Shown in pieces: positions 28,239-32,272 of a stretch of 32,583 nt of DNA (position 1 is its first letter; each line of letters begins with the position of its first letter). The position numbers and the translations under genes are program-made. This stretch comes from an uncultured Alphaproteobacteria bacterium. Its GTDB lineage: Bacteria; Pseudomonadota; Alphaproteobacteria; Geminicoccales; Geminicoccaceae. The notes beneath the pieces are model-generated. The model searched no databases and was not told where the DNA came from. It was given only the letters and a program-made list of their open reading frames with translations. The stretch is taken from positions 1 through 32,583 of the forward strand of contig CALBAK010000078.1 in NCBI GenBank assembly GCA_937926445.1, given 5' to 3'.

Positions 28239-28745
28239 TCAGCGAACCGGCAGACAGTAGGAGGGCAGGGGATAGACCCGGCCGATCGGCGCGCCGCGGG
28301 CGGCCGCCGCCCGCTCGAGCGCGGCGTAGCGGCCACCCGAAAAACGCGGGCAGTCGCGGGCGAGACCGGCCGCGACGAGCGCCGCCCCGAGATCGCGGCC
28401 GTCGACCGTGCAGACCGCCACGATCCGCCCGCGCGTGCGGGTACCGTCCGGGGTGCAGGCGACCGATCGGCCGGCCACGAGCCGCACCAGAGCGTCGCGC
28501 GATTCGCGGCCGAGCGGCTCGCCGAGCTCGGGAGCGGCCACGCCCTGCAGGCGCACCGCGACACCCTCGACTTCGATCGTGTCGCCGTCGCGGATTTTTT
28601 CGACCGAGCCCGCGAAGACCGTCGCCGCGACCGGTCGCGGACGCGGTTCGGCCGTAACCCGACCGGCGGCCCCGAACAGACCCGCCGTCACTGCTGTGGC
28701 CAGCACCGCGACGATCGCGGGCCGGCGGATGTGCCGTACCGACAT
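28239..28745 (-). CDS. Secreted thermonuclease-family (SNase-like) nuclease
   Basis: A 168-residue staphylococcal-nuclease-fold protein. A signal peptide is visible (basic start, then IVAVLATAVTAGLFGAAGRVTA, about 11-32). The OB-fold carries VEKIRDGDTIEVEGVAVRLQG (D53 and D55 for calcium, R65) and APELGEPLGRESRDAL (E73), then TRTRGRIVAVC with a basic residue in the R87-equivalent area. LGAALVAAGLARDCPRFSGG and the final cysteines (C132, C164) could form a disulfide. It probably degrades nucleic acid outside the cytoplasm. The start is ATG with GGGAGA about 8 nt upstream. It converges with the oxidoreductase pseudogene. Confidence 0.88.
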   Translation of the reverse strand: MSVRHIRRPAIVAVLATAVTAGLFGAAGRVTAEPRPRPVAATVFAGSVEKIRDGDTIEVEGVAVRLQGVAAPELGEPLGRESRDALVRLVAGRSVACTPDGTRTRGRIVAVCTVDGRDLGAALVAAGLARDCPRFSGGRYAALERAAAARGAPIGRVYPLPSYCLPVR

Positions 28746-29115
28746 GGGCGTGATCTCCCTGTCGGTACCCTAACTGCTTGTCGGTCCCCTGTGTCGGCGA
28801 GCGCGCCCATCGGTATAACCGGGTATCGCTCCGCCTCGCGCGCAGCGTGCCCGGCTCGGGCTCCGCGATCGTCGGTCCTACCGATCAATACCCTCGTGGA
28901 CGCCGCGAGTGCCGAGCCGGCGCTCGAGGACGCGGATCCCTGCCGCGTCTTGCGGCGCTTTGTTCTGCCGGAGGCCAGTCCGGCACCGGAGCATCGATAG
29001 CCCGCTGCGCACGCGAGCCGCGGGTGTCCGGCTGGTCGCGCCGGCGCGAGAAGACTGGTCTCGCCGGATCGCCCGAGCCGCGTTCGGTTGTGACGGCGTC
29101 GAACTCGGCTCGGGA

Positions 29116-29168
29116 CCTGTCGGCTCTCGAACCGGGGCGACGACGTCCCGGGTTCGACCGTCGGCAGG
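29116..29168. other. Nested long hairpin in the gene-poor block
   Basis: Nested pairings CCTG/CAGG, CGG/CCG, CGAACC/GGTTCG and GGG/CCC all share one centre, giving a 53-nt imperfect hairpin. The function is unknown; in 74% GC sequence chance is possible. Confidence 0.35.
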
Positions 29169-29761
29169 GCGAGGAGAGGCTAGGCCCGCGCGGGGCGGGC
29201 GAGTGCGAGGTCGGCCGAAGCACCTCGAGGAGGACGCGCACCGCACGCGGCGGCCGGTCGACAGGTGGGCCAGCTGCGGCTCAACGGGCGCGGACGCCTT
29301 CCGCGCGCGGACCCGCGGTTCACGTGCGAGCGCAGGCGGCGCCTGTTCGAGGAGGCCTCTCCGTTCGGCCGGTCGTTCGCCCGATACTCGCCGACGACGC
29401 AGGACCGTGCCCGCTCGCGGGCGCCGGGCACGTGGGTCGATCGTCCGGCCACTCGCTCGCTGCGCCGCGGGGGAGTCCCGTGGCGTGGGGTGCCGTTCCG
29501 GTCGAACCGTTCGGATCGGCGAGCCCTTCCTCGCCCCCGCTGAAGCGGCTCGCCGTCGAGAGGGCTCGCCTTGTGACCCGCCTGCGTGCCGAGCGGCGGT
29601 ACGAGCGGACAAATCGCCCGCGATCACGGGGGCCGCGGGTCTCACACGGCGTGTCGGAGCTCGTGCTCCGATAGACCCCTTTCCGGCCGAGGTAGGACCC
29701 GGGGCCCGAGAGCACGGGGCACCGACGATCGGCGATCTCCGTGTAGGACCGGGGCAGCGAA

Positions 29762-29834
29762 GCGCGGCACGCTCCGGCACAGCGGAAGAGACCGATCCCT
29801 CCGGTCGCGGTGCGTCGCACGTAGCGTGCCGTGC
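29762..29834. other. Cloverleaf-like dyad cluster, not a recognisable tRNA
   Basis: A 12-bp outer stem with one G-U pair (29762-29773 with 29823-29834) encloses small stems CCG/CGG (29774-29785), GACCG/CGGTC with a 7-nt loop (29790-29806) and GTGC/GCAC (29810-29820). It lacks the tRNA T-loop and D-loop bases. Confidence 0.35.
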
Positions 29835-30994
29835 CGACACTCGCGTGCCCACGAAACGACCTTCGTGTGGGCGGGAGCACCCGTCCGCGGATCGCCGCCG
29901 CTGCGGTCGTCCATCGACCTCTCGGCAAACAGCCGCGGCTTCGCCCGGAGCCGAGCGAAGCGGCAGGAGAACGAGCCCCTACCGCACGAAAGCCTCATCG
30001 TCGATCGGGCGGTTCGCGTTGCGTTCCGCGCGAAGTACCTCCTCGCTCGCGAGTCGACCCTCGGTTGCCGCGCCGCGAGGGAAGACCTCGGGGGTTGCCG
30101 GTGCAGAGCGCAGGTTCCCGCGCCGCGGCCAAAGGCGTCCGCGATCGGTCGGGCCGTGGGCCCGGTGGGTCGAACGCGGGCCCCGGGGCGCGAGGGAGTC
30201 CCGCCCGGACCAGCGCGGCCCGTTTTCGCCCTGGCCGTTCGTCACCGAGGCTCGCGGGGGAGCCCCGACGAGGCCTCGTATCCGAGCCCGAAGCGAGCGA
30301 TATGGGCCTCCACCCGGGCGACCCGAGCCCCGCGGGTACGGCGGGTTTCTGCCGGAGCCGCTCCTTGGTGCGGTGGGCGGTCCCGGACCGCAATCTTCTC
30401 GGACCGACCGGCCCGTGACGATCAGAAGCGCTCGTCGCGCCGCGGAGCGAACGGGTCCCGGCGTGGCGTTACCGGCTCGCTTCGAGCTTCCACGACGATC
30501 GCGCCGTCCGCCCGAGGCGGCGCGACCGCCCTCGCTACGCCTCGGAGCCGCCGACGAGCCGGCAGCGGACCATCGCAGGCGATCGCGGGGCGATTCCCGG
30601 GGCGCGATCGCGGAGCTCGCCGGTCCCGGCATCGCAACGAGCGCGGCTCGCGCACGGACGTCGGGCCGTACCGTGCACCGGGTCGCGGCGGCCGTCCCGC
30701 CGGGCGAGCCGGACACGGAGCGACGACGCGGCTCGCCGGCCCGTGTTCGACCGCTCCGGGTGCCAGCCGGGGCGAACCCAGTACGCACCGTCGCCCCGAC
30801 GGCAGCGAAGGGACGGCGGGGGCCGCTCGCGAGCGAGCGGAGCCGCACTCTTCTCGACCGCCGGGGTTTCGCCACGCGCCGCGACCTCGGCCGATGAGCC
30901 GGCCGACCGCACCTTTCCCCAGACGGCGGCGCTCGCACCCCGCCACGGGGAGGTCCGGCCCCGAGCCGAGCGCGGCGACGGGGCCCGGGCACGC

Positions 30995-32272
30995 TCAGGC
31001 CGCCATCGCGCCGGTCGCCGGGCCCGGCGCGGCGAGGGCCGGCAGGCAGCCGTCGCCCGCCATGTAGTCGAAGCCGGCGCGCCGCGCGGCCTCGGCGAGC
31101 CCGACCCGGTTGACCCGCACGAGGAGACTGCGGAGCCCGGCCTCGCTGCAGGCCCGAGCCGTGGCGGCGAGCCGTTCGCTTTGCCCGCGAGCGGCCTCGT
31201 CGAGCCCCGAGGCTTCGAAAGAGACGACCTTCACACCCGCCCGGGCGAATGTCCGCAAAGGCCCGGGCTCCGCCGCGGCCTCGAGCGGCAGGCGCAGGAT
31301 CGGCACCGCGGCGAGCTCGGCAAGGAGATCGAGCGTGCTCTCGAGGGCCGTCCCGTGCTGCCGCGGATCGTGGTCGACGAGCTCGATGCCGAGCCGGCGC
31401 AGGGGCGCGGGCCCCAGCGCCTCGAGCCGCGCGCGCCAAGGCCGCCGCCAGGCCGGTGTGCCGAGCGTCGCATGATGCACCGGCAGGACGAGGAGCGCAC
31501 GCGCCGAGCGCAGCCCCGGCCCCCCGAGCTCGCTCGCCACCCGCTCCGCGAGCCAGCGGTCGAGCGCCGCCGCGAACGCGCCGGTCGACGCTTCCGGGCA
31601 GACGATCTCGGGCGGCGCCCAACCACCCCCCGGCAACGGCAGCCGGGCGAAGACGCGATAGGCCACGATCGCGGCGAGCTTCAGGCTCAGGATCGGCCGG
31701 TAGCGGGCCACGAGCTCGCTCGCCCGGGCGGCGAAGGCATCTGCCTCGACCGCCTCGAGGCGACCGCGCGCGCGCTCCATCCGCTCGCGCAGCGCACCGA
31801 GCCCGACGATGCCGCGCAATCCCTCCTCGAGGTCGAAGGGCAGGACCCGCACGCCGACCGCGGCCGAGGCCGACGCGCTGCCGAAGAGCCGCTCGCCCGC
31901 GAGGGCTGCGAGCTCCTCGCCGCGCAGCCGCAGCGCCGCCGGCTCGCCCTCCAGGACGAAGACCCACACGGTGGTCTCGTCGGCCACGAGATAGAGCTCC
32001 TCCTCGTCGAGCTCGTGGGCGAGGGCACCTTCGACGATCGCCAGCACCTTGCCGCGCCGCTCCGGCCAGCGGCCGGCGAAGCGCGCGCGAACCGGCCGCA
32101 GATCGAGCAGGATCAGCCCGCCGGCGCGGGAGCCGATCTCCCGCAGGAACACGCGCCGGAACCGCTCGAGCCGGTCGGCGAGCTCGCCCGGCCGGCGCGG
32201 ATCCAGGCCCGCGCGCGTGCGCGGTGGCCAGAGCCCGAGTGCGGTGCCCTCCTCGATCGCCACGAAATCCAT
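30995..32272 (-). CDS. Degenerate EAL-like protein (probably no phosphodiesterase activity)
   Basis: A 425-residue cytoplasmic protein without membrane helices. The C-terminal half resembles an EAL domain: YRPILSLKLAAIVAYRVFARL (191-211) mirrors the usual FQPIVDLxTGxIxGYEALLR, with the EAL glutamate replaced by Arg206. FARAGVKVVSFEASGLDEAA and AGFDYMAGDGCLPAL (about 399-413) match the end of the barrel. The metal-binding E, N and D residues of active cyclic-di-GMP phosphodiesterases are not evident, so it may only bind a ligand or partner. Residues 30-150 (VLAIVEGALAHELDEEELYL) might be a decayed GGDEF-like or other sensory domain. The start is ATG with GAGGA about 6 nt upstream. A possible CtrA box lies about 86 bp before it. 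The family call is moderate. Confidence 0.6.
   Translation of the reverse strand: MDFVAIEEGTALGLWPPRTRAGLDPRRPGELADRLERFRRVFLREIGSRAGGLILLDLRPVRARFAGRWPERRGKVLAIVEGALAHELDEEELYLVADETTVWVFVLEGEPAALRLRGEELAALAGERLFGSASASAAVGVRVLPFDLEEGLRGIVGLGALRERMERARGRLEAVEADAFAARASELVARYRPILSLKLAAIVAYRVFARLPLPGGGWAPPEIVCPEASTGAFAAALDRWLAERVASELGGPGLRSARALLVLPVHHATLGTPAWRRPWRARLEALGPAPLRRLGIELVDHDPRQHGTALESTLDLLAELAAVPILRLPLEAAAEPGPLRTFARAGVKVVSFEASGLDEAARGQSERLAATARACSEAGLRSLLVRVNRVGLAEAARRAGFDYMAGDGCLPALAAPGPATGAMAA

Follow-up and report, generated by a model that had tools for sequence, protein, structure and literature searches.

A 2.2-kb gene-free block in a hot-spring Geminicoccaceae genome is probably weakly constrained, GC-rich spacer DNA

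The window analyzed here, a stretch of 32,583 nt that makes up one whole contig of a 3.71-Mb assembly, contains a block of 2249 bp (28746–30994, GC 0.745) that extends from the start codon of an SNase-fold gene to the stop codon of an EAL-domain gene. What kind of DNA occupies this interval is the question addressed below. The original prediction had placed the block between a nuclease and an EAL protein, and Pfam confirmed both neighbors: the gene at 28239–28745 on the minus strand matched PF00565 (SNase fold, E 8.1e-7), and that at 30995–32272, also on the minus strand, matched PF00563 (E 9.7e-10). A long structured RNA, a nucleoid-protein or segregation site, a decayed island and an unknown gene type had been offered as explanations. 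The genome is closely related to MAGs of hot-spring Geminicoccaceae, with an ATP synthase gamma subunit 87–94% identical to those of five records including the complete genome KatS3mg117.

A gene-free block and its site in congeners

A 7-state codon-periodicity HMM, trained on strongly GC3-biased ORFs from the sampled part of the genome, called 28772–30997 as a single non-coding segment, and across 28800–30899 the best coding frame scored 10–22 nats per 300 bp below the non-coding model. GC was flat over the three codon phases of 28746–30994 (0.723/0.752/0.760), in contrast to the EAL gene, where the plus-strand phases had values of 0.911/0.559/0.822. The codon-phase GC of 29041–29700 (0.759/0.773/0.695) reproduced the earlier A+T phase figures for this interval exactly. 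A Pfam search with the 17 stop-to-stop six-frame pieces of at least 60 residues returned nothing at E<=1 apart from one match of 11.9 bits, below the cut-off, and the longest open frame had no relative at E<=0.001 among 39 other genomes. Neither codon periodicity nor homology in one frame was thus detected, and the expectation that the block holds no recognizable gene was borne out. No tRNA was found in the block, a promoter scan revealed no promoter-like site there, and repeat finders returned two- and three-copy matches only.

In all five congeners (G001–G005), the best matches of the EAL gene (42–46% identical) and the SNase gene were adjacent and in the same relative order. The gaps between the match edges were 157, 213, 147, 259 and 242 bp in G001 to G005, respectively. 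Since the flanking genes lie 147–259 bp apart in every one of them, the additional 2 kb is peculiar to the lineage studied here. Neither the DNA of the block nor a block of similar size at this site was found in any of the five, and across 39 related genomes its DNA matched only as pieces of 33–73 bp scoring 42.8–46.4 bits. The comparison with close relatives proposed at the outset therefore spoke against a conserved function at the site, as neither sequence nor position was kept. When the intergenic sequences were placed side by side and compared by eye, unscored, a string near 28815–28832 resembled one upstream of the SNase gene in G004 and G005. On this basis, 28746–28832 (minus strand) is the probable SNase upstream region. 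The apparently shared string would place the extra DNA between this region and the EAL stop codon, with the lineage-specific part probably beginning at about 28833.

Long spacers in this genome and its relatives

Spacers were called by the periodicity HMM in a sample of 649 kb of the genome, a procedure by which genes of odd composition could be included among them. As a result, 11 non-coding segments of at least 800 bp were identified, with a total of 20.2 kb (3.1%); they belong to the 101 interior spacers that measure 150 bp or more, and the block at 28746–30994 ranks fourth in length. The mean GC of the 11 was 0.741, compared with 0.703–0.723 in three shorter classes (MWU p = 0.06 for long versus shorter spacers) and 0.713 in the coding DNA of the sample. 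The proposal that the block is GC-richer than typical intergenic DNA is consequently weakened to a slight excess. A GC of 0.72–0.76 was shared by 10 of the 11 long spacers, and in 10 of 11 the dinucleotides CA/TG occurred at 0.56–0.70 of the expected frequency; the ratio was 0.75 for short spacers and 0.81 for coding DNA. The 10-block set referred to below omits L072:10628–12234 (1607 bp, GC 0.67), in which stops are not depleted (48 v 53.7). These 10 blocks did not appear to be copies of one element, given that their best mutual match of 38.3 bits fell within the range of 20 shuffled sets (35.6–45.5 bits), and no widely shared enriched word was present among the k-mers listed.

Spacers of comparable length were also found in the congeners. 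G005 had five segments of at least 800 bp in 334 kb, of which one had a GC of 0.762 and the other four did not exceed 0.713. Spacers of at least 600 bp numbered three in G001 (113 kb; longest 1334 bp), nine in G003 (104 kb; longest 1866 bp, GC 0.66; called with an HMM borrowed from G005 and hence less reliable), two in G004 (41 kb) and one in G002 (17 kb, picked for its sites). Long spacers are accordingly not peculiar to this species, whereas the block at 28746–30994 is. Separately, a 9.6-kb stretch of G005 (L087:1–9623, positions 2900001–2909623) with a GC of 0.59 lacked native codon periodicity and is perhaps a foreign island.

Four gene boundaries that carry a long spacer in this genome were compared between congeners; the sites had been picked for that length, so that the genome's having the longest gap is partly a matter of selection. 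The first lies between a gene that we take from its peptide to be rpmF (L054:10337–10540) and a Glu/Leu-type dehydrogenase gene. With the block taken from 10541 so that rpmF stays out, the gene-free, GC-rich gap measured 3.07 kb (L054:10541–13605, contig C73), compared with 2.29 kb in G005 and 2.33 kb in G002; G001 and G003 have about 0.11 kb there, and the G004 site is cut off by a contig end. The match of this block to the G005 region reached 54.0 bits, where 10 shuffles reached up to 69.7. No case for non-coding homology with G002 is made, as the match of 69.7 bits (at most 68.3 in 10 shuffles) spans the end of the dehydrogenase gene. The block also contains a diverged 146-bp duplication (74% identity, E 6e-15) that includes the dehydrogenase 3' end and scored 77.9 bits versus at most 50 in 40 shuffles, which points to duplication as a way in which the spacer may have grown at this one site. 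The same own-genome search found no comparable duplication in 28746–30994.

At the second boundary, a gene identified by Pfam as encoding D-3-phosphoglycerate dehydrogenase (serA-like; L100:2626–4263) is followed on its 3' side by 3.0 kb in this genome (L100:4263–7268, contig C16), by 1.78 kb in G002 (L214:2194–3977) and by 0.37 kb in G004; no spacer was called in G003 or G005, and the contig ends in G001. Comparison of the own block with G002 and G004 yielded 34.6 bits, within the shuffles (29.2–41.9). Paired matches within the G002 spacer gave the appearance of a direct repeat inside it, roughly 100 bp long, with the copies spaced by 423 bp. Gaps at the third boundary, 3' of a DsbA-like gene, measured 2.17 kb (this genome), 0.95 kb (G003), 0.47 kb (G002) and 0.12 kb (G005); a search at E<=1e-20 did not detect the gene itself in G001 and G004. 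The fourth, a 2.3-kb spacer beside an amidohydrolase gene, had no counterpart in G004 and G005, some convergent coding call lying directly next to the gene; the amidohydrolase relatives in G001–G003 were only 36–37% identical. Gap length thus differs greatly between congeners at four sites, the EAL–SNase site included, and no spacer similarity was detectable at the three of these where sequences were compared. That long blocks recur at the same boundaries while their sequences are not conserved is a loose end.

Competing readings of the block

The absence of the block from congeners, the variable lengths at sister sites and the lack of a coding or RNA signal together favor weakly constrained spacer DNA that is held at about 75% GC by a lineage-wide force and whose open frames are a by-product, a reading to which we assign a probability of roughly two in three. 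Like junk DNA, the block shows no coding signal and, in the cross-species comparison, no sequence conservation and a variable length in relatives. It would be one of a set of kilobase-scale, length-variable spacers at certain boundaries in hot-spring Geminicoccaceae. In this lineage, the interval that separates the SNase upstream region from the EAL stop codon would have grown from about 0.2 to 2.2 kb, growth here being preferred to loss in all congeners because all five gaps are short. Duplication, as suggested by the rpmF-side copy, is a candidate mode of growth; insertion and decay of foreign DNA would be equally possible for this block. A genome-wide force, whether GC-biased gene conversion, selection for GC or GC-biased mutation, would outweigh AT-biased mutation, and the scarcity of CA/TG, above all of TCA/TGA, would leave few stops in any frame and hence long meaningless open frames.

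Several observations count against weakly constrained spacer DNA. The blocks are if anything GC-richer than functional spacers, whereas AT-biased mutation would be expected to leave unconstrained DNA with more A+T than these; their stop depletion exceeds that in 160–800 bp spacers overall; one boundary carries blocks in up to three species; and no gene remnant was found in the block at 28746–30994. Moreover, two of its segments, of 63 bp (51.8 bits) and 44 bp (48.2 bits), match the inside of coding genes of the same genome. In shuffle comparisons against a 308-kb sample, the best of 10 Markov shuffles of the block reached 43.7 bits and the best of 40 shuffles of four blocks 50.0 bits, so that both matches beat the block's own shuffles and the stronger one beats all 40. 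These matches are tentatively attributed to composition.

A decayed island, that is, foreign or duplicated gene(s) that landed in this lineage and mutated past recognition, is a more specific origin of the same functionless DNA. Consistent with it are the lineage specificity of the extra 2 kb, all five congeners being short, the diverged copy of a neighboring gene end in the sister block and the two weak own-gene matches above the block's 10 shuffles. Against it stand the 17 six-frame pieces, which at E<=1 contained no Pfam remnant beyond the single 11.9-bit match, and the phage and plasmid comparison, as blastn with 11-base words at E<=1e-5 returned no match to the block among 50,697 records of phages and 72,556 of plasmids. 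Interrupted genes likewise showed no clear excess: in-frame interruptions occurred at 0.179 per kb, near the 0.155 of G005, so no wave of gene decay is shown. Neither Pfam nor the comparison of the longest frame with 39 other genomes uncovered a recognizable gene remnant of the kind that marks a pseudogene. We regard this origin as unlikely. Among the options originally listed, decayed or unconstrained DNA nevertheless fits best, with decay as its conjectural part. A gradient of pseudogenes around the blocks, suggested by frame changes, was not upheld by in-frame stop counts. As an observation in its own right, a gene-free block in L055:1324–5795 (contig C76, 9 kb) gives way to coding signal that switches frame repeatedly, possibly representing decaying genes.

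The scarcity of stops, which the original prediction had pointed out along with the long open frames, proved to be real. The six frames of the block contain 28 stops versus 48.2 +/- 5.9 in 300 dinucleotide-preserving shuffles, and its longest open frame spans 692 codons, compared with a shuffle median of 346 and a 95th percentile of 517. In the 10 blocks of this genome, 181 stop trinucleotides were counted where 317 are expected from dinucleotide frequencies, a ratio of 0.57, with values of 0.33–0.77 in each block, for example in L115:13955–16253 and 28746–30994; the ratio was 0.69 (114 v 165) in six blocks from relatives and 0.79 when all frames of coding DNA were counted. Gene-end stop codons inflate the counts in short spacers, and after spacer ends were trimmed by 50 bp the 10 blocks had a ratio of 0.53 (bootstrap 0.45–0.61), or 0.59 (0.47–0.71) with the eleventh spacer L072 added. 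The corresponding value was 0.84 (0.77–0.93) for 85 spacers of 160–800 bp from this genome and 0.71 (0.58–0.87) for the 37 of them with a GC above 0.73. The depletion in the blocks therefore goes beyond that of spacers as a whole, but not clearly beyond that of GC-matched spacers, and a near-equal depletion in the latter is as expected of a by-product. TGA/TCA was the lowest of the 32 trinucleotide classes (0.49 of expectation), TAA/TTA the second most depleted (0.59) and TAG/CTA the fifth (0.74), with the non-stop classes ACT/AGT (0.63) and AAT/ATT (0.68) ranking between them. As a partial explanation, we read the stop scarcity as an effect of sequence context that becomes stronger as GC rises. 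Published work reportedly deals with the depletion of stops in lincRNA (PMC7086181) and with the usage of stop codons (PMC8789281, PMC9129041).

The same data bear on whether the block is a functional element defined by composition, such as nucleoid, segregation or spacing DNA maintained because it is GC-rich and poor in stops, whatever its sequence, so that only its position would recur. The 10 blocks are alike in composition without being similar in sequence, their stop depletion exceeds that of spacers in general, and one boundary carries blocks in three species, all of which would suit such an element. It is, on the other hand, missing at the EAL–SNase site in all five congeners, varies from about 0.1 to 3 kb at a single site, shows a stop depletion that overlaps that of GC-matched shorter spacers and has no widely shared enriched word in the k-mer lists. 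Taken together, these points make this role very unlikely for the block. The broader version, in which the blocks of hot-spring Geminicoccaceae form a class of composition-defined elements that return at particular boundaries in different species while sequence and length turn over, kept GC-rich and poor in stops of all six frames by selection, is given just as little credence; such selection could act, for example, through pervasive transcription and translation or through a composition-sensing nucleoid protein.

A structured non-coding RNA from part or all of the block was a further option, and the block had been described as dense in dyads. Relative to 300 shuffles, perfect arms of 7, 8 and 9 bp were mildly in excess (19 v 13.8, 8 v 4.6 and 4 v 1.4 expected, with as many in 25, 28 and 20 of the 300 shuffles, respectively), while those of 6 bp (39 v 40.1) and 10 bp (0 v 0.5) were not, and the best hairpin was equalled in 6 of 100 shuffles. 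The description is thus borne out at most as a mild excess at the intermediate arm lengths. The only locally well-folding part found consists of two adjacent long hairpins at 29015–29185 on the plus strand (z -2.5), where the MFE of -98.1 kcal/mol was matched by one of 200 shuffles (-87.1 +/- 4.4) and where the lowest z among 72 block windows (-3.6) falls. Besides this segment, whose folding beats 199 of 200 shuffles, a terminator-like site at 28941–28958, the sole such site in the block (two overlapping matches, 0.4 expected), may be cited in favor of an RNA. The case against it comprises the mean folding z of the whole block (-0.66 on the plus and -0.52 on the minus strand), which resembles that of four coding controls on both strands (-0.61 to 0.02), the lack of an Rfam match even at E<=1, the 6 in 100 shuffles that attain the best hairpin, the absence of the block from all five congeners, and the lack of a homologue from which covariation could be scored. 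No structured-RNA family was recognized with Rfam, and a structured RNA from part or all of the block is highly improbable. A strong hairpin is not a general feature of the blocks either, as only two of 14 came near the tail (the block of the window at 6/100 and C4 at 4/100 shuffles).

An unrecognized protein gene with unusual codon use, for instance the 692-codon open frame at 28819–30894 on the plus strand, draws on the length of that frame, which exceeds the shuffle 95th percentile of 517. Phase-flat GC, stops that are similarly few in each of the six frames (5, 3, 6, 5, 6, 3) and not in one alone, and the lack both of a Pfam match and of a relative in the 39 other genomes render the unknown gene type scarcely credible. 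Equally implausible is a non-autonomous mobile element with short terminal inverted repeats: the block ends carry an 11-bp exact inverted match (left copy at 28844–28854, plus strand; right copy at 30985–30995, minus strand) whose 11-mer occurs nowhere else in 649 kb, but this weak match is probably due to chance, its p of about 0.011 versus random same-block pairs being the lowest among 16 blocks tested, direct matches at the ends are no longer than 6 bp, no second genome copy was seen beyond the 44- and 63-bp matches, and the inverted repeats, target-site duplication and multiple copies typical of a transposable element or MITE were not found.

Parallels and implications

Long intergenic regions that retain no trace of earlier genes have been described, mainly in host-dependent bacteria undergoing genome degradation (PMC3899985). 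The bacterial junk DNA of that account resembles the present case in consisting of kilobase-scale, gene-free spacers with no trace of genes. The present case differs in that it concerns a 3.7-Mb hot-spring MAG with no demonstrated excess of interrupted genes and with long spacers that average 74% GC. Young pseudogenes in Salmonella are quickly removed (PMC2916853), which makes lasting long spacers here mildly unexpected. Non-coding DNA likewise remains GC-rich despite AT-biased mutation in the lineages treated in two further sources: such a mutation bias is described in clonal pathogens (PMC2936535), and intergenic GC above the mutational expectation was attributed perhaps to GC-biased gene conversion (PMC4450053). 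The intergenes considered there were alignable or flanking ones (at most 400 bp on each side in PMC4450053), whereas the spacers here are kilobases long, with a GC at least that of coding DNA (0.713). If the AT-biased mutation reported for those lineages is set beside a spacer at 75% GC, a GC-favoring force in this lineage is suggested.

A limited literature search met no report of such blocks in Geminicoccaceae. The observation is real and of an ordinary kind, and its loose ends are the recurrence at boundaries and the shortage of stops in all six frames. Provided that the blocks are free of constraint, they would be kilobase-scale reporters of the forces acting on base composition away from genes, where the usual material for such questions is mostly short functional spacers, and GC-biased conversion, selection for GC and mutation bias would become separately testable. 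Should the six-frame stop scarcity prove to be selected, it would represent an unfamiliar type of constraint on bacterial non-coding DNA.
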